Shown here: piece after piece, positions 556 to 14,214 of the stretch
Layout of the letters: each line of letters starts with the position of its first letter
How positions within the stretch are numbered: position 1 is the stretch's first letter
Origin: Nitrososphaeria archaeon
GTDB taxonomy: Archaea; Thermoproteota; Nitrososphaeria; Nitrososphaerales; JARVJX01
DNA length: 35,957 bases
Direction of reading: 5' to 3'
Assembly: GCA_029775995.1 (NCBI GenBank)
Contig: JARVJX010000005.1
Span: 1 to 35,957 of the forward strand
The notes under the pieces: model-generated
What the model was told of the DNA's origin: nothing
Databases searched by the model: none
Seen by the model: the letters and a program-made list of their open reading frames with translations, nothing else
Position numbers and translations under genes: made by a program

Positions 556-565
556 AAATTTATTA
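556..565 (+). promoter_or_regulatory. TATA-like box of the ilv-leu operon
   Basis: An AT-rich box (AAATTTATTA) lies about 26 nt upstream of position 586-590. That is the archaeal TATA-to-start distance, and it places the transcript start almost on the ATG of the small leader ORF at 590. The leader ORF would then be translated from a leaderless mRNA. Read by eye only, with no transcript data. Confidence 0.4.
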
Positions 566-589
566 AGCCAAAAATTGTAGGTTAAGATA

Positions 590-670
590 ATGAAGAGGGC
601 ACGAGATACCATATTACTTTCCAAGGACTTACAAAGCCTACTTGTGATTGTGCCCCTTCTAGTGCCTTAA
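590..670 (+). CDS. candidate branched-chain leader peptide (26 aa)
   Basis: This 26-codon ORF (ATG 590, TAA 668-670) ends 57 nt before ilvB. Twelve of its 26 residues are Leu, Ile or Val, and residues 17-25 read LLVIVPLLV. Such a run is the hallmark of leader peptides that sense charged branched-chain tRNAs in bacterial ilv/leu attenuators. The ATG sits at the transcript start predicted from the TATA-like box at 556-565. A 10-bp hairpin begins four nucleotides after the stop codon, and the ilvB Shine-Dalgarno sequence follows the hairpin. The position upstream of ilvBN-leuAB is exactly what a feedback leader would need. The alternative is a chance ORF in the AT-rich leader; ribosome-mediated attenuation is not established in archaea, so the role is inference. 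Confidence 0.4.
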   Translation: MKRARDTILLSKDLQSLLVIVPLLVP

Positions 671-673
671 AGG

Positions 674-700
674 CCTCATCAAAGCTAAAATTTGGTGAGG
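674..700 (+). promoter_or_regulatory. hairpin between leader ORF and ilvB
   Basis: CCTCATCAAA (674-683) pairs with TTTGGTGAGG (691-700), ten base pairs with one G-U, around a 7-nt loop. The stem ends 5 nt before the ilvB Shine-Dalgarno stretch GGGAGGAGGTG (706-716). No U-run follows, so it does not look like an intrinsic terminator; control of ilvB translation would fit better. A competing pairing GGGCAC (597-602) with GTGCCC (650-655) is possible within the leader ORF. Confidence 0.45.
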
Positions 701-727
701 TTTATGGGAGGAGGTGTGGTATAAAAT

Positions 728-2410
728 ATGGTTTATATGTCTGGTGCGAAAGCCCTTATAGAGGCTTTAAAGAAAGAGAATGTAGATGTAATCTTCGGTA
801 TACCTGGAGGGGCAAATTTACCCATATACGATGCGTTATATGATAGCGGTATAAGGCATATATTAGCTAGACATGAGCAAAGTGCAGCCCATATGGCTGA
901 TGGTTATGCAAGAGCCAGTAGAAGAGCAGGGTTATGTATAGCCACTTCTGGTCCAGGAGCAACAAATTTGGTTACTGGAATAGCTACAGCTTACATGGAT
1001 TCTATACCTATGGTAGCTATAACTGGACAAGTACCAACAAAGATGATAGGTAGGGATGCTTTTCAAGAAACAGATATAGTTGGAGTGGCTATGCCTATAA
1101 CTAAGTATGCCTTTCAGCCCAGAAAGGCATCAGATATACCTGAAACAATAAAGAAGGCTTTCTATATTGCCAATAGTGGTAGGCCTGGACCTGTATTGGT
1201 CGATGTTCCAAAAGATACTCAATCAGATTTTGCAGATATGAATTTTCCAGAAAAGGTTACTGTTAGAGGCTATAATCCACAAGTGGAGCCTGACCCCATA
1301 CAAATTGAGAGAGCCTGTGAACTAATACTAAAGGCTGAGAGACCTATGATAATGGCTGGAGGAGGGGTTTTGATAGCTGGAGCCTTTCATGAGCTACAGG
1401 CTTTAGCTGAGCTTATAATGAGCCCTGTGGTAACTACCTTTAAAGGAAAGGGAGCCTTTCCTGAGAATCACCCCCTAAGCTTAGGTCCCATTGGCATGCA
1501 TGGGCATATTGAAGCTAACAAATTGATAATTGAGGCTGATGTATTGCTCGCTGTAGGTTCTAGATTTTCAGACCGTTCTGTAGGAAAGTTTGATGAGTTT
1601 GGAAATGGGATGAAGATAATTCATGTGGATATAGACCCTTCAGAAATAGGTAAGAATAAGCAGGTTGATCTTCCCATTATTGGGGATGTAAAGGTCACCT
1701 TAGCTGAGTTGGTTAAAGGTTTAGCCAAAAGAATCATAAGAAAGGAAGATAACCCTTGGCTTAAAAGGGTAAATCGAGTTAAGGAGGAAGTAAAACAGTA
1801 TTGGAAGGATGAACCGAAGGATATTACTCCAAGAAAACTTTTGAAAAAATTAAGGGAAGTTTTGCCCCCTGATTCTATCGCAACTACCGAAGTTGGTCAA
1901 TGCCAAATGTGGGCTTCTTTGCATTTTGATGTAATAAAACCTGGAACCTTTTTCAGCTCTACAGGCTTAGGTACCATGGGTTTCGGCTTTCCAGCAGCTA
2001 TAGGTGCAAAGGTAGCTAGACCTAACGTTCCTGTAGTAGATATCGCTGGAGATGGTAGCTTTTGTATGACTGAAAACTCTTTAGCTACAGCAGTCCTTGA
2101 AAGGATACCTGTAATAGTTGTTATAATGAACAACCGCTTATTGGGAATGGTAGCCCAATGGCAAAGATTATTTTATGAAAAAAGGCTTATAGGGGTAGAT
2201 CTTCATGATTCCCCTGACTTTGTAAAGTTAGCAGAAGCTTATGGGGCACAAGGGATAAGAGTGGGGTCTTTAAAAGAGTTTGAAGAGGCTATGAAAAAGG
2301 CCCTTATTAGTGATGTAGCTACTGTGATAGATGTTCCTATTGATCCTGAAGAGGAAGTTTATCCCTTTGTAGTTCCTGGAACTAGTTTAAAGGATATGAT
2401 AATTGCCTAG
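728..2410 (+). CDS. ilvB: acetolactate synthase, large (catalytic) subunit
   Basis: Catalyses the TPP-dependent condensation of pyruvate to acetolactate, or with 2-oxobutyrate to acetohydroxybutyrate, the first common step of valine, leucine and isoleucine synthesis. The 560 residues match the family length. The N-terminal half carries the TPP-activating glutamate in RHEQSAAHMADGYARA (about residues 48-63) and the GPGATN segment; the C-terminal domain has the TPP motif GDGSFCMTEN...NN around 440-465. The ATG at 728 has a strong Shine-Dalgarno sequence (706-716) 11 nt upstream; an ATG at 737 (MSGAKALI) is a possible alternative start. The stop codon is followed directly by the GTG of ilvN, so the two subunits are translationally coupled. 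First gene of the ilvB-ilvN-leuA-leuB operon; expression may be controlled by the leader described at 590-700. Confidence 0.96.
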   Translation: MVYMSGAKALIEALKKENVDVIFGIPGGANLPIYDALYDSGIRHILARHEQSAAHMADGYARASRRAGLCIATSGPGATNLVTGIATAYMDSIPMVAITGQVPTKMIGRDAFQETDIVGVAMPITKYAFQPRKASDIPETIKKAFYIANSGRPGPVLVDVPKDTQSDFADMNFPEKVTVRGYNPQVEPDPIQIERACELILKAERPMIMAGGGVLIAGAFHELQALAELIMSPVVTTFKGKGAFPENHPLSLGPIGMHGHIEANKLIIEADVLLAVGSRFSDRSVGKFDEFGNGMKIIHVDIDPSEIGKNKQVDLPIIGDVKVTLAELVKGLAKRIIRKEDNPWLKRVNRVKEEVKQYWKDEPKDITPRKLLKKLREVLPPDSIATTEVGQCQMWASLHFDVIKPGTFFSSTGLGTMGFGFPAAIGAKVARPNVPVVDIAGDGSFCMTENSLATAVLERIPVIVVIMNNRLLGMVAQWQRLFYEKRLIGVDLHDSPDFVKLAEAYGAQGIRVGSLKEFEEAMKKALISDVATVIDVPIDPEEEVYPFVVPGTSLKDMIIA

Positions 2411-2926
2411 GTGATAAGTTTGGAGACCTATATAATTTCAACTTTAGTTGAGAATAAGCCTGGAGTATTGCAAAAGGTATCTAGCATGTTCAGGAGTAGA
2501 GGTTTTAATATCGATAGTATATCTGTAGGACCCATTGAGAGCAGTGATATATCCAGGATGACTATAACCATAAAGGGTGATGAAAGAACCGTGGACCAAT
2601 TGGTTAAGCAACTGAAAAAGTTGATAGATGTTATAGAGGTAAATATTCTAGACCCTAAGAATACTGTATATAGGGAATTGGTCCTAATTAAAGTGAATTG
2701 TAAGGATACAAATGATAGAAACGATGTAATTATCTTCTCTAGCATTTATAATGCCAAAGTAGTTGATGTTACCAAGGAAAGTATGATAGTTGAGTTAACA
2801 GGGACTCCTGATAAAATTGATTCCTTTATAGAACTCCTTAAAGCTTATAATATAATAGAGCTGGCAAGAACAGGTGTTACAGCTTTAGCTAGAGGTAATG
2901 GTAATGGCACAAGAGGAATATATTAG
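2411..2926 (+). CDS. ilvN: acetolactate synthase, small (regulatory) subunit
   Basis: Regulatory partner of IlvB that stimulates activity and normally confers feedback inhibition by valine. The 171 residues begin with an ACT domain (ISTLVENKPGVLQKVSSMFRSRGFNIDSISV, about residues 9-40), followed by the C-terminal regulatory domain with the typical RELVLIKV segment (about 88-95) and a conserved LARTGVTALARG end. The start is a GTG placed directly after the ilvB stop codon, with no spacer. The 3' end overlaps the start of leuA by 29 nt. Length and domain order are normal for the full-size archaeal/bacterial subunit. Identification is secure. Confidence 0.95.
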   Translation: MISLETYIISTLVENKPGVLQKVSSMFRSRGFNIDSISVGPIESSDISRMTITIKGDERTVDQLVKQLKKLIDVIEVNILDPKNTVYRELVLIKVNCKDTNDRNDVIIFSSIYNAKVVDVTKESMIVELTGTPDKIDSFIELLKAYNIIELARTGVTALARGNGNGTRGIY

Positions 2927-4412
2927 GATTTATGATACTACTTTGAGAGATGGTGAGCAAACTCCAGGAGTATCCTTAACCTTAGAGCAAAAATTAATCA
3001 TAGCTCAACAGTTAGATAAGCTTGGGGTAGATGTAATAGAGGCAGGCTTTCCTATAACTTCAAAGGGTGAAGTTGAAGCTGTAAAATCCATAGCAAAAGC
3101 AGGATTAAGGGCTGAAGTTATTGCTTTAGCTAGATGTAATAAGCTTGATATAGATACAGCTTTAAGTTGTGATGTTAAAAGTTTACATCTTTTTATAGCC
3201 ACTTCAGATATTCATCTTAAACACAAATTAAAGATAAGTAGGGAAGAAGCTTTAGAGAGGGCAATAGAATGCATTAAATATGCTAAGGGGCATAATGTTA
3301 CTGTAGAGTTCTCAGCTGAAGATGCTACCAGAACCAATTTAGATTTCCTTAAGGAATTCCTTAAAGCTGTTGTTAAGGCTGGAGCAGATAGGTTAGACAT
3401 ACCTGATACTGTAGGTATATGCACCCCTGAAAGGATGAGTCAGATAGTTAGAGAGGTTAAAAGTGTATGTAATGTTCCTATAAGCGTTCACTGTCACAAC
3501 GATTTTGGACTTGCAGTATATAATACCATAGCAGGTATAAAGGCTGGAGCCAATCAAGCTCATTTAACCGTCAATGGTATAGGAGAGAGAGCAGGAAATG
3601 CCTCTCTAGAAGAGGTTGTAATGGCTCTTCATTGCCTTTATGGTAAAAAGACAAGGATAAATACCCAGCTGATTTATGAAACTTCTCAATTGGTTTCAAG
3701 ATTGACAGGAATTGTGATTCAGCCTAACAAGGCCATTGTAGGTGATAATGCCTTTGGTCATGAATCAGGAATTCATACCCATGGAGTATTAGAGTATCCC
3801 TTAACCTATGAACCTATAACTCCTGAGCTGGTAGGAAGAAGGAGGTGGATCATGGCTGGTAAACATGCAGGAAGTCATGGTATACAGGCTCAGTTAGAGA
3901 GCTTAGGAATTAAAGCTGATAAGGAGCAATTGAAAATCATAGTAGAAAAGGTTAAGGAATTGGGGGATAAAGGAAAAAGAGTTACAGATGCTGATTTAGA
4001 AGCCATTGCAAAGACCGTTATAGGTCAGAATCTTAAGGAAGAAAAACCTGTTCAATTGTTAGATTTAGCGGTAATGACTGGAATAAAAGTAGTTCCAACT
4101 GCAAGTGTGAAGTTAATGATAGAGGGTAAAGAGATATTAGCAGCTGAGACAGGGGTTGGTCCTGTGGATTCAGCTATAAAAGCTATCCAGAAAATTAGTG
4201 AAAGTTTTGCAAAAATAAGGTTAAAAGAGTATAGACTTGATGCTATAACAGGAGGTTCCGATGCATTAGCTGAGGTAAGTATAAAGGTTGAAGATCATGA
4301 AGGAAATATGGCTTGGGCTAGAGCCATTGGAGAAGATGTGGTAGTAGCAAGTGTTGAGGCTATGATAGATGGGATAAACAAACTTTTGATGAAGAAAAAA
4401 ATAATTCATTAA
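2898..4412 (+). CDS. leuA: 2-isopropylmalate synthase
   Basis: Condenses acetyl-CoA with 2-oxoisovalerate, the first committed step of leucine synthesis. The catalytic TIM barrel starts with IYDTTLRDGEQTPGV (metal-binding Asp and general-base Arg), has the HCHNDFGLAVYNT metal-binding segment near residue 200 and the NGIGERAGNASLEEV motif near 230. The full 504-residue length includes the C-terminal LeuA allosteric domain (about 390-500). Close relatives make citramalate or homocitrate; the adjacent leuB supports the leucine role but substrate choice is not proven. Two starts are possible, ATG 2898 or ATG 2904 (MAQEEYIRI), both inside the end of ilvN. leuC and leuD are not in the window. Confidence 0.9.
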   Translation: MVMAQEEYIRIYDTTLRDGEQTPGVSLTLEQKLIIAQQLDKLGVDVIEAGFPITSKGEVEAVKSIAKAGLRAEVIALARCNKLDIDTALSCDVKSLHLFIATSDIHLKHKLKISREEALERAIECIKYAKGHNVTVEFSAEDATRTNLDFLKEFLKAVVKAGADRLDIPDTVGICTPERMSQIVREVKSVCNVPISVHCHNDFGLAVYNTIAGIKAGANQAHLTVNGIGERAGNASLEEVVMALHCLYGKKTRINTQLIYETSQLVSRLTGIVIQPNKAIVGDNAFGHESGIHTHGVLEYPLTYEPITPELVGRRRWIMAGKHAGSHGIQAQLESLGIKADKEQLKIIVEKVKELGDKGKRVTDADLEAIAKTVIGQNLKEEKPVQLLDLAVMTGIKVVPTASVKLMIEGKEILAAETGVGPVDSAIKAIQKISESFAKIRLKEYRLDAITGGSDALAEVSIKVEDHEGNMAWARAIGEDVVVASVEAMIDGINKLLMKKKIIH

Positions 4413-4417
4413 GTTAT

Positions 4418-5437
4418 ATGCAGAAGCTTAAGGTAGCCTTAATAGAGGGAGATGGTATTGGTCCTGAAGTAAGTAACGCTACTCTAAAGGTTCTAGAGGC
4501 TTTAAAATCTACATTTAATCTAAATTTTGAAATTCAAAAGGTAGATGCTGGTGATAGATGCCTAGAGAGGAAAGGAAGGGCTTTACCAGAGGAGAGTCTT
4601 GATGTTATCAAAGGCTCAAAGGCAATACTAAAGGGACCAGTGGGAAATACTGCTATGGATGTTGTGGTTAGATTAAGGCAGATGTTTGACCTTTACGCAA
4701 ACATTAGGCCTGTGAAAAACTTACCTAAAGTTCCTTCTTTGAAACCCAACATAGATTTTATTATAGTAAGAGAAAATACAGAGGATTTGTATAAAGGTTA
4801 TGAGTTCAATATTCAGGGAGGAGCAATAGCTCTAAGGATAATAACCGAGAAAAGTTGTAGGAGAATTGCTGAGTATGCCTTTAAATTGGCTGAGAAGAGA
4901 AAAGGAAAGATAGTTGCTGTTCATAAAGCTAATGTGTTAAGACTTACTGATGGTTTGTTTGTAAAGGTTTGTAAAGAGGTAGCTTCTAATTACCCTCATA
5001 TAGAGTATAGTGAAATGCTTGTGGATGCTATGGCTATGAATCTTATAAGAAATCCTGAAAATTATGACGTGATCTTGACTACAAATGTTTTTGGAGACAT
5101 TTTATCTGATGAAGCAGCTCAATTGGTAGGAGGCTTAGGCTTAGCACCATCTGCAAACCTAGGAGATGATAAGGCTTTATTTGAACCTGTGCATGGAGCT
5201 GCCCCTGATATAGCTGGTAAGGGTATAGCTAATCCCCTTGCCATGATTTTATCCTCAAAGATGATGCTAGATTGGTTCTTCTCAATAACTGGAGAGGAGA
5301 ATTACGGAAGGGCTGGAGAAGTTTTAGTGAAATCGGTTATAAAAAGCTTGGAAGAAGGCTTTACCACCCTAGATTTGGGAGGTGATAAAAAGACCATGGA
5401 AGTTGCAGATTTCATAATTAGGGAATTAAAAGTATAA
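4418..5437 (+). CDS. leuB: 3-isopropylmalate dehydrogenase
   Basis: Beta-decarboxylating dehydrogenase of 339 residues. It opens with the nucleotide-fold motif [10 protein letters not shown], has the substrate-binding [17 protein letters not shown] arginines (about residues 85-100), the RENTEDLY loop (about 118-125), the K/D catalytic pair ([21 protein letters not shown]), the metal-binding aspartates in [20 protein letters not shown], and the NAD-site [15 protein letters not shown]. The [12 protein letters not shown] loop resembles the branch that also includes isocitrate and homoisocitrate dehydrogenases, so relaxed specificity is possible. It begins 5 nt after leuA and closes the operon, which supports the leucine function. 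Confidence 0.88.
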
Positions 5438-10188: not shown

Positions 10189-13100
10189 TTACTCCTTATC
10201 TAAAAATTCATAGGGCCTTGGAACCTCTGGAGGTAGACCCTTTCTCTTCCTTATTTGATTTATTATTTCTGATTGCATAGAAGAAGGCAGAGGTGCCCAG
10301 AGTTTAAAGTGAGTACTCCATAGGGCCTTACCTGCTGTAGCGCCCCTCATAACTTCCGATAGGTCAAAGGTTTCAGAGGCTGGTATCTCACCTTTAATAA
10401 GGGATAAAAATTCTTTTTGCTCTATGTTGATGATTTTACCTCTCTTTGATGAAATAACACTCGCTACAGTACCTATGAGCTCCGTAGGACATTTAACCTC
10501 AATTTCAAGTATGGGTTCTAGTAAAACAGGATTGGCTAAGAGCATGGCTCCTAAAATGGCTCTTCTTGCTGCTGGCATTAATTGGGCATAGGTTCTATGG
10601 GCAGGATCTTCGTGAGGTACAAAGTGATGCAGAACTATCTTTATACCTCTACAATATTCATAAGCCAAGGGACCATTTCTCATTACATCTATAAATCCTG
10701 CCCTTAAGGAATCTAAGGATTCCTGTAAGAATTGAACACCTTTAGTACCATCTACAAAAAGATTTCCCCTCTCATCTATACTAACTACATTTCTAGCTTC
10801 ATCAGCATTCCATCCCTGCTCCCTTAAAATCTTGGCAACAGCCTTTCTTTCCATGATTTCATTGATCTCGCCTGTTAAAATCATGCTTACAACCTTCTCA
10901 CTCAAGGGCTCAGCTCTAATAAATACTTGGTTATGCCTATTAGGAGATTTTGCCATAACTGGACCAGCTGTACCTCTTATGGTTTCCCTATAGTTTATCA
11001 AAGGTTTAGAAGTTATAATCTCTAACCCCTTCTCCTGAAGGAGGGTTGTTGCAATTTCCAAATGTAATACTCCCATTCCAGACATAAGCATCTCTCCCGT
11101 TTCCTCATTTATTTTAATCACTAAGTTAGGGTCTTCAATACTCATATTTCTCAAAGCATCAACAAGCTTAGGAAGGTCCTTTGGATGCTTAGGCTCAACG
11201 CTTATAGTAACTACAGGCTCTGAAACATACCTTACGGATTCAAAGGGTATCATATCTTTAGTCTGGGAAAGGGTTTCTCCCGCCCTTGCATGCTCTAAAC
11301 CTAATAAGGCTGGTATATTGCCAGAAGGTAATTCTCCTACAATCTCCCTATAAGGTCCCATAAACATGGTTACTGATTGAACCCTTTCCTCTCTTCTTGC
11401 TCCTACCAAATATATTATATCTCCATCTCTTACTTTACCAGAGAATAATCTTCCTACAGCTACTATACCTGCCTGAGGATCTACTACAACATTGGTTACC
11501 ATCATTACCATGGGCCCCTCTTCATCACATTCAAGCATAGCTTTACCAATGGAGGAATCTAAATCTCCTCTCCATATCTTTGGAATTCTATATCTTTGGG
11601 CTACATGAGGAGGAGGATGATGCTTGATGACCATGCTTAATACAGCCTCATGTAAAGGTATATTTTCTGTTAGGAATTTAATATCTCCTGTGTTATAGGC
11701 ATTATAAATATCACTAAATCTTATTCCCTTTCTTTTAGCCATCTCAAAGTTAAAGCCCCATTTATCTTTAGCAGAACCAAAGGCTACACTACTATCTTCT
11801 ATCCTAACCTTCCACTTTTCCTTAAACTCAGGCTCTGCGTAAAGAGAGATTAAATTGTTAAATTCAGCTACGATGTTGGCTAACCAGCTCTGCATCTTCG
11901 CAGGGGTAAGCTTTAGCTCTTTAACCAATCTATCAATCTTGTTGATATATAGCACAGGCCTAACCCTCTCCTCTAGGGCTTGGGATGTTACAGTTTCAGT
12001 TTGAGTCATTACACCCTCTACAGCATCTACTACAACTACAGCCCCATCGATGGCTCTAAGGCTCCTGGTAACTTTCCCTGTGAAATCTATATGCCCTGGT
12101 GTGTCTATCATGTTAATTACATAGGGCTTTCCCTCATATTCATAGTATAGGGTAACGTTAGCAGCTTTAATAGTCATCTGTCTTTGTTGCTCTAAATCCA
12201 TAAAATCTAAGGCTAATACTTGGCCAGCTACAGCAGGACTAATCATTCCACAAGCAGCAAGTAAGCTGTCACTCATGGTGGTATTATGCACTATTATTCC
12301 ATTAGCTACAAAGGTATGTGTGTTGGGTACAGTTAGATCGTAAACATCAAAATCCCCTTTAATGAATTCTTTACTCTTCACTTGTATAAATCTGATATCT
12401 CCTTTTGCAAGCTTCTTCCATTGCTCTAACAGCATCCTTACGTTTTTACTCTCGGGACTATCTTCTTTTAAAAGAGCCCTCCATATTTCTAAGATTTTGA
12501 TTCCAAATCTTGTTACTTTGTATCCTTCCCTCTTTTTTATGATCAACCTATCAGCCTTAAGAGAAGCTAGAATACCTTTAATTTTGGAAATAGTTAACCT
12601 CAAAGAATGGTTTAAAGCATTTAGTTTCGCCTCTTTGATAAGTTCTAGAAGCTTATATTTGTCAGCTAAATCCTTTTTATTCTCATAGCTTCTTTCGAAT
12701 ACATTTAAAATTTTATTAAAGATAAGCCAAGTGATCCTTACCTTTCCCTCTTCATACTTCTTATAGTATGGAATTTCTTTTATAGTACCACTTAATCCCA
12801 GGACTATTCTTAAAGTTTTAATCTCTTCTGGCTTTATTGGAACAATATCACTGATCCTGCTAGATGTGGAAACTTTAACTAACTTTTCTAGCTTTTGAGC
12901 CTTCTCTCTTACCTTAAAACCTATTTTTTCTTTAAAGTTAATAAGATTATTACTAGAAATGGTTAGTATTTTATAAGGACCTCTATTATAAATGCTCGGG
13001 ATTACCTTAAAACGTAATAGAGTTAAGCTAAGCTCTCTAACAAGTTCCTTTGACGCTAAGGTTAAAGAGACTCCATTCATATCAACGGTACCATCAGTAT

Positions 13101-14214
13101 CATAGAGACCTCTTAAGAACTCTAAGACGAACTCATTGTGCATTAGGGTTACGAGGGTTGGAAGTCTCAAGTTATGGCTCTTATTTTTTAAAGGATAAGA
13201 AAAAACGTCCTTAAGGAACATCATAAGTGTGTAGCCTCCATGATGGTCTATCCTAAAGGTTGTTTTGCCTTTAACCATCTTTGTTTCTAAGTTAAAGCAT
13301 ATCTTCATCATCTTCTTATAAGCATGAATTATAGCTGGATTAGAAGATGTTAGTGAGGCTCTATTTGTTCCGTCTCCAAAAAGAAGTCCAAGGCCATAGA
13401 GCATAAGCTTAAACTCTTCACTAGTTTTTGGAAGTTTAATCTTTTTAGACTGTCTTCCAAACCTCTTATTGGATGATCTATACATTAAAGATATAATGTG
13501 ATCATATACCTCTGTATAGTTAATATTAAAAGTATCTGTTAAAGAAATCAAATCCTTAAGTCTAAATCTTCCTTTCTTCGCTCCTGATACAAAACCTTTA
13601 AGGCTTATAGTACCTTGAATTTTTGAATAAAGCTCTTTATAACCTATTTCCTTAAATTTAAGCAGAATTTTTTCAGCAAGGGCTTTACTCACATAAACTA
13701 AATAATACTCTTTTTGTGAAAGCTTCTTAATTATGAGACTCTTAACATCATCTAGGTTAGTACCAAGGCTTTTAAGAATATTAGGAACAGCTATATACTC
13801 ACCAGGATTAATTTCATCGGCTCTTAAGGCTTTCAATAGACCTAGGGGGCTTAAAGAGTAAAATGGATGTTCTGGTGTTACAAGAATCTCGTAACCATTT
13901 TTCAAGGTTATCTTTACTAATTGGTCAGTCTTTAACTTCCAAATGGCTGATGAATTAAGGTCCTTCATCCTTAAGCTAGAAACATCTAAAGAATCTACCT
14001 TAAGCCCTTCTTTGAGCTCAACCTTCTCTTTATTTTCTCCTAATCTGGAGTAAAGTTCCTTTATACTTACTATTTCTCCGTTACTTAATGGGATTAAAGA
14101 TTCTCCACTAATACACTTCCCGTGGTCAACATGGGCTATTACACCCATGTTTCTTATCTGTTCCTTATTAGCTATGATTTTTAAGGCTTCAGCAGTAGTC
14201 TTATACTTTACCAT
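10189..14214 (-). CDS. fusA: elongation factor 2 with intein
   Basis: Translocase GTPase of the ribosome. The 1341-residue precursor contains a 611-residue intein (residues 34-644); the exteins join to 730 residues, a normal aEF-2 length. The P-loop AHVDHGK-TT is split by the intein between Lys33 and Thr645, so GTP binding needs splicing. Downstream lie G3 (DTPGHIDF), G4 (NKIDR), the switch-I-proximal DFMDLEQQRQMTIKAAN segment and domains III-V. Domain IV carries PHEDPAHRTYAQLMPAARR, where the His before Arg aligns with the diphthamide histidine, but the usual HRGPAQ reads HRTYAQ. It is upstream of no other minus-strand gene in the same run; the PHI gene starts 43 nt upstream. The gene is intact in frame throughout. 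Confidence 0.96.
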   Translation of the reverse strand: MVKYKTTAEALKIIANKEQIRNMGVIAHVDHGKCISGESLIPLSNGEIVSIKELYSRLGENKEKVELKEGLKVDSLDVSSLRMKDLNSSAIWKLKTDQLVKITLKNGYEILVTPEHPFYSLSPLGLLKALRADEINPGEYIAVPNILKSLGTNLDDVKSLIIKKLSQKEYYLVYVSKALAEKILLKFKEIGYKELYSKIQGTISLKGFVSGAKKGRFRLKDLISLTDTFNINYTEVYDHIISLMYRSSNKRFGRQSKKIKLPKTSEEFKLMLYGLGLLFGDGTNRASLTSSNPAIIHAYKKMMKICFNLETKMVKGKTTFRIDHHGGYTLMMFLKDVFSYPLKNKSHNLRLPTLVTLMHNEFVLEFLRGLYDTDGTVDMNGVSLTLASKELVRELSLTLLRFKVIPSIYNRGPYKILTISSNNLINFKEKIGFKVREKAQKLEKLVKVSTSSRISDIVPIKPEEIKTLRIVLGLSGTIKEIPYYKKYEEGKVRITWLIFNKILNVFERSYENKKDLADKYKLLELIKEAKLNALNHSLRLTISKIKGILASLKADRLIIKKREGYKVTRFGIKILEIWRALLKEDSPESKNVRMLLEQWKKLAKGDIRFIQVKSKEFIKGDFDVYDLTVPNTHTFVANGIIVHNTTMSDSLLAACGMISPAVAGQVLALDFMDLEQQRQMTIKAANVTLYYEYEGKPYVINMIDTPGHIDFTGKVTRSLRAIDGAVVVVDAVEGVMTQTETVTSQALEERVRPVLYINKIDRLVKELKLTPAKMQSWLANIVAEFNNLISLYAEPEFKEKWKVRIEDSSVAFGSAKDKWGFNFEMAKRKGIRFSDIYNAYNTGDIKFLTENIPLHEAVLSMVIKHHPPPHVAQRYRIPKIWRGDLDSSIGKAMLECDEEGPMVMMVTNVVVDPQAGIVAVGRLFSGKVRDGDIIYLVGARREERVQSVTMFMGPYREIVGELPSGNIPALLGLEHARAGETLSQTKDMIPFESVRYVSEPVVTISVEPKHPKDLPKLVDALRNMSIEDPNLVIKINEETGEMLMSGMGVLHLEIATTLLQEKGLEIITSKPLINYRETIRGTAGPVMAKSPNRHNQVFIRAEPLSEKVVSMILTGEINEIMERKAVAKILREQGWNADEARNVVSIDERGNLFVDGTKGVQFLQESLDSLRAGFIDVMRNGPLAYEYCRGIKIVLHHFVPHEDPAHRTYAQLMPAARRAILGAMLLANPVLLEPILEIEVKCPTELIGTVASVISSKRGKIINIEQKEFLSLIKGEIPASETFDLSEVMRGATAGKALWSTHFKLWAPLPSSMQSEIINQIRKRKGLPPEVPRPYEFLDKE
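12283..14115 (-). mobile_element. LAGLIDADG homing-endonuclease intein in EF-2 P-loop
   Basis: The intein begins with Cys34 (CISGESLIPLSNGEIVSIKE, block A), has block B VTPEHPF (residues 112-118) and ends with the splicing blocks DVYDLTVPNTHTFVANGI and VHN (block F/G, Asn644); the +1 residue is Thr. Two LAGLIDADG motifs, LYGLGLLFGDG (272-282) and FLRGLYDTDG (366-375), each keep their acidic residue, so the endonuclease may be active. Residues about 525-575 look like an extra helix-turn-helix/winged segment. It sits in the most conserved site of the gene, GHVDHGK|TT, typical for inteins. An EF-2 intein is known from Methanopyrus to my recollection; whether it shares this site needs an alignment. 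Confidence 0.93.

Follow-up and report, generated by a model that had tools for sequence, protein, structure and literature searches.

Ribosome-mediated attenuation is a textbook bacterial mechanism, and the leaders of E. coli ilvB, ilvG and leu are attenuators of this kind, situated in front of branched-chain operons. Another bacterial ribosome-mediated attenuator belongs to the ilvBNC operon of Corynebacterium glutamicum (PMC11857589). For archaea, a study of promoter-proximal elongation published in 2021 stated that no mechanism of transcription attenuation or antitermination was known (PMC8448881), and attenuation is unmentioned in a review of archaeal transcription-translation coupling (PMC8116511). 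Here we describe, upstream of archaeal ilvB, a leader ORF with conserved amino acid composition, conserved promoter spacing and a hairpin at its stop codon. With the bacterial branched-chain attenuators it shares a short ORF dense in codons for the regulated amino acids, an RNA hairpin and the operon next to it, while it differs from them in its TATA promoter and near-leaderless start, in having no conserved U-run terminator and one hairpin exactly at the leader stop, and in a Leu codon bias limited to some families. Translational attenuation of the ermC/cat type also combines an upstream ORF (uORF), a hairpin and the Shine-Dalgarno sequence (SD) of the downstream gene, with a stall that alters local structure; in contrast, the archaeal SD lies outside the hairpin, its sequestration is not conserved and lack of an amino acid, in place of a drug, would be the signal. 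As with T-boxes and riboswitches, amino acid genes would be controlled at the RNA level, but in the archaeal element the conserved part is an ORF predicted to be translated, and Rfam gave no match for it in the sequence analyzed here or in its relatives. A full-text search of open-licence papers found no description of the leader, an earlier report in a subscription journal being possible.

The ilvB upstream region

The window, i.e. the whole stretch of 35,957 nucleotides analyzed, belongs to a Nitrososphaerales archaeon related to ammonia oxidizers but with no close relative in the collections. The best matches to its IlvB, mostly from Nitrosocaldus, reach no more than 74% identity. The leader is situated directly 5' of a matching biosynthetic operon, ilvB-ilvN-leuA-leuB, with the genes assigned by NCBIfam:

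559-566, plus strand: TATA box TTTATTAA, first T 31 nt before the leader ATG
590-670, plus strand: leader ORF MKRARDTILLSKDLQSLLVIVPLLVP, 26 codons, stop codon at 668-670, predicted to be leaderless or nearly so
638-664, plus strand: control codons for LLVIVPLLV (CTA CTT GTG ATT GTG CCC CTT CTA GTG), residues 17-25
671-703, plus strand: hairpin abutting the leader stop, arms 671-683 and 691-703 (13 bp), with a 10-bp core 674-683/691-700
706-716, plus strand: ilvB SD, GGGAGGAGGTG
728-2410, plus strand: ilvB, acetolactate synthase large subunit, with its ATG at position 728
2411-2926, plus strand: ilvN, acetolactate synthase small subunit
2898-4412, plus strand: leuA-type 2-isopropylmalate synthase
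4418-5437, plus strand: leuB-type 3-isopropylmalate dehydrogenase

An earlier note on this DNA had described the 26-codon ORF with 12 Leu, Ile or Val (L/I/V) residues and its LLVIVPLLV run, the ilvB SD and the missing U-run after the hairpin, and all of these are borne out. The near-leaderless start which it proposed is supported by the position of the TATA box, from which the transcript start is predicted; directly 5' of this box is CGATAAA, a BRE-like sequence common to relatives of one family (f6). The hairpin, described at 674-700 with 10 bp, is real, and A-U and G-U pairs extend it to 13 bp; it begins directly behind the stop codon, 3 nt upstream of the start given in the note. Its folding energy is -16.0 kcal/mol, compared with -4.6 +/- 2.1 for shuffled sequences (z -5.4). 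By chance, a uORF ending with at least 6/10 L/I/V is expected in about 2% of cases in the upstream region of the window (mononucleotide shuffling).

Two other features of the window were observed. Positions 420-543 are a repeat that recurs at seven more sites in the genome with about 72% identity, often near contig starts; it stops a few bases 5' of the ilvB TATA box, its last 32 bp are 97% identical to one further copy, and it is probably the end of a degraded mobile element. On the minus strand, at 10189-14214, EF-2 contains an intein, which is about 600 residues long, includes a LAGLIDADG domain and is located near the N-terminus just ahead of most of the GTP-binding domain.

Leaders and control codons in related archaea

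By protein search and direct retrieval 188 ilvB upstream regions were collected, 158 of them distinct, mostly from Nitrososphaerales and with about 14 outgroups. The uORF was chosen blind to its peptide: the ORF taken was the one preceded, at a distance of 24-39 nt, by the best TATA box. In the 95 uORFs with a strong TATA box, those within one family sharing ancestry and hence being non-independent, the last ten codons have an L/I/V frequency of 0.60, compared with 0.21 in their own N-terminal part, 0.22 and 0.12 in the shifted frames and 0.28 for a comparison set of 198 other ORFs from these regions. A frequency of at least 0.6 is reached by 72% of uORFs and by 5.6% of other ORFs. In nearly every family the ORF picked by its TATA box has a polar N-terminus and a C-terminus that is branched-chain up to the stop, for example MPRTDSEHKVHVLVLLELA in Nitrososphaera, MKLGGSASISSILLLVDLML in Nitrosopumilaceae, MNSIKGKASFKVLEDIIKEVLLVILI in f6 and the ends VQVVLLILTVLPLVVLL in f4 and SLILVIILLL in f16, each followed by the stop codon. 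Its recurrence spans some 20 families, in which the TATA spacing is fixed and the composition is specific to the frame. The earlier note's reading, a branched-chain leader peptide, is supported by these relatives, and the lack of the ORF or hairpin in relatives, which it had named as evidence against itself, was not what we saw in nearly all Nitrososphaerales families. The leader is also present in other orders of the class (families f18, f20, f21 and f24 and a single f22 genome), where 11 of 18 loci have it compared with about 7% by chance, and one locus from another family of the phylum, outside the class, reads MNKSFIIPFRLLLIKVAKLLAPSLVIVVILK and after its stop has at once a perfect 10-bp hairpin (L335). 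The leader is missing in one Nitrososphaeraceae subclade, where a TATA box is close to ilvB instead, in most of family f22 and in the Bathyarchaeota outgroups. The same caller found 0/8 such ORFs upstream of hisG, trpE, ilvC and pheA, and no Trp, Phe or ilvC leaders were found upstream of trpE, pheA and ilvC.

The peptide sequence differs between families while its L/I/V composition is kept, as expected for tRNA sensing. Synonymous-only change did not emerge from the comparison: pN/pS of the leader is 0.51-0.53 in Nitrosopumilaceae and 0.90-0.92 in Nitrososphaera, and the +1 frame matches both values. Since synonymous variation of Leu codons extends to their first base, this measure is uninformative about the frame. 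L/I/V frequency is highest 2-3 and 5-8 codons before the leader stop. In 32 Nitrosopumilaceae leaders 44% of Leu codons are CTG, compared with 8% in neighboring genes, in Nitrososphaera leaders 79% of Val codons are GTT, compared with 19% in neighboring genes, and all three Val codons of the window leader are GTG, which elsewhere accounts for 13% (p = 0.008). This rare-codon bias is clear only in some families, and the rarest codon is not used in every family. Such skewed leader codons fit the proposed tRNA sensing.

Further upstream elements were seen in the same survey. Upstream of ilvB in three f18 loci (L309-L311) a hairpin lies inside the control codons, in L309 as GGTCTACTT-CA-AGTAGACC, and the leader stop is 4-14 nt before the ilvB start, adjoining its SD. 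Four loci from other families of the phylum (L329, L343, L345 and L346) have a distinct, very short conserved ORF approximately 80-120 nt 5' of ilvB (MRDGTLQV, MSGGTLQVH, MMGGYTLQVE and MIGDFSLQVD, each before a stop), and the DNA surrounding CCCTCCAAGT is conserved; an Rfam scan of the ilvB upstream loci L329, L345 and L346 gave no match. Bathyarchaeota (L104-L109, L114) carry upstream of ilvB a repeated ATGGGGTATTGCTTTAT flanked by GGGG/CCCC blocks. In many Nitrososphaerales families a conserved motif, GATTAC-TTCAT/CAC, is found 60-130 nt upstream of hisG, sometimes in two copies (L221, L219, L205, L222, L206, L209, L226 and others). It is often a tiny ORF with a His codon (MGDYVHKL in the genome of the window itself, MRDYLHTR in L219, MRLVEVGYLHHQLC in L222, all ending in a stop). 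The motif may represent a further leader peptide, of minimal size, or else an RNA/DNA element. The trpE genes at L228-L250 are apparently leaderless, with TATA about 30 nt upstream, and several of these loci have TGTACA palindromes resembling repressor operators; a Trp leader was seen in none.

The hairpin at the leader stop

The best hairpin beginning near the leader stop was determined in 62 loci. Its median start lies 1.5 nt ahead of the stop codon's first base (IQR -5 to +3), and from its end to the ilvB ATG there are on average 20 nt. Significance (p <= 0.05) is reached in 45% of these loci, where 5% are expected. In 15 of 19 families z is -2 or lower for the best member; the hairpin is weak or absent in Nitrosocosmicus, family f15 and most Nitrosocaldus. 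The arms are unrelated between families (GGCCTCATCAAA, AGGGCTCA, GCCCACAAAAAGCAAG, GCACCCC, CCCAGCG, GCGCCTTAAG) and offer no alignable sequence, while their location is common. As far as comparison of sequences can tell, it is the position and pairing of the hairpin that are conserved and not its sequence. Support for the hairpin comes from these differences in arm sequence between families. Within families, covariation (RNAalifold) is weak, since the hairpins of a family either hardly vary or align poorly.

Pairing of the control codons with the hairpin arms, a possible competing structure, is near chance: codon shuffles are beaten (p<0.1) in 17% of loci for the 5' arm and in 8% for the 3' arm. 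In the window a rival pairing of 592-602 with 649-659 is predicted.

Possible mechanisms and their output

We consider it likely, on the evidence of composition and layout, that the leader peptide senses branched-chain aminoacyl-tRNA and controls ilvBN-leuAB; what we infer is translation of the leader, its sensing of tRNA and an increase of ilvB by the stall or the hairpin. Transcription would begin at the leader ATG or only a few bases away from it, and a ribosome would translate the leader during transcription of the operon. It is known that a ribosome on a stop codon covers approximately 10 nt downstream; here it would have to open the hairpin, while one halted 5-8 codons earlier would leave the hairpin intact. 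When charged Leu/Val/Ile-tRNA is ample, the ribosome would get to the stop, where its mRNA channel would have to melt the hairpin, and under shortage it would stall among the Leu/Val/Ile codons 5-10 codons before the stop and the hairpin would fold, the hairpin state being a readout of ribosome position. The ribosome that finishes the leader would park beside the ilvB start region, while a stalled ribosome and a folded hairpin would keep the ilvB start accessible to another ribosome. We take translation of ilvB to be the most likely output, through the position of the ribosome near the ilvB start. Across relatives the stop-to-ilvB distance ranges from 26 to 77 nt, so that no one occlusion geometry is obvious.

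The main alternative, possible but rather doubtful in our view, keeps the same sensor and places the output in transcription elongation through FttA/aCPSF1. FttA takes RNA straight from the RNAP exit channel, and the authors of its structure hypothesize that steric exclusion between FttA and a coupled ribosome serves as quality control of coupling (PMC11616081), which lends plausibility to this output. In replete cells the ribosome would leave at the leader stop and the exposed RNA between stop and ilvB would let FttA terminate; under shortage the stalled ribosome and folded hairpin would block FttA loading. The space between the stop and the SD is filled by hairpins in many families, and T5-T6 runs follow the hairpin in f24 (L312) and some Nitrosopumilaceae, both of which favor elongation as the output, while T-runs speak against it when counted overall: runs of at least 5 occur in the gap in 10 of 54 loci, with 5.8 expected, an enrichment that is not clear, and no T-run terminator follows the hairpin in the window. 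An intrinsic terminator was rejected as a shared mechanism on the same grounds. In L312 the hairpin that separates the leader stop from ilvB, GCGGCC..GGGCCGC, has TTTTTT after it and resembles a bacterial intrinsic terminator.

Classical translational attenuation, in which the control codons pair with the ilvB SD and the stalled ribosome releases it, is unlikely. Positions 651-660 of the window are predicted to pair, around the hairpin, with the SD region, and the mean SD accessibility is 0.03 when the leader is free and 0.24 with a ribosome on the control codons, as this output would predict. However, pairing between leader and SD in the window is no better than that of codon-shuffled leaders (p = 0.31), and in 58 relatives p < 0.1 was obtained in only 7%. 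With ribosomes placed at control codons or at the stop, SD accessibility computed in 79 relatives was up in 12 and down in 6, an inconsistent change. The Ser codons TCCTCC of f13 leaders are complementary to GGAGGA (p = 0.01-0.04 in 2/4), and the mechanism could be confined to f1 and f13. Sequestration of the ilvB SD, the output favored by the earlier note, is thus not conserved in relatives, and the ermC type was rejected as a general output, there being no conserved accessibility or antisense duplex effect. The SD and T-run tests together indicate that the shared mechanism is something other than ermC-type sequestration or an intrinsic terminator.

Sequence-specific arrest of the nascent chain, or a functional micropeptide, in place of tRNA sensing is very improbable: the peptide is fairly conserved within Nitrosopumilaceae (as in MKLGGSASISSILLLVDLML), but across families it is unrelated and L/I/V content alone persists, and a hydrophobic run of 8-10 residues is short for a membrane span. 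A chance hydrophobic ORF beside an unrelated palindrome, e.g. a DNA operator, is hardly credible, since L/I/V-rich ends of short ORFs do arise in 0.5-12% of shuffled upstream regions but the recurrence of the leader across some 20 families, at fixed TATA spacing and with frame-specific composition, makes a chance origin untenable, and the palindrome is tied in position to the leader stop.

Returning to tRNA sensing by the leader peptide, the idea is known from bacteria and what would be new is the archaeal case without an intrinsic terminator. We lean towards regarding it as the first archaeal ribosome-mediated amino acid attenuation, with an ancient Nitrososphaeria leader on a leaderless mRNA, a hairpin toggled at the leader's own stop and no intrinsic terminator. 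The presence of this layout in nearly all related families suggests that archaea also sense amino acid shortage by means of a ribosome on a leader peptide. If this is true, attenuation would no longer be solely bacterial, and the leader would have been kept across a class which includes globally abundant ammonia-oxidizing archaea. Archaeal transcription-translation coupling would then be linked to a physiological signal, in a way that is testable in cultured species.
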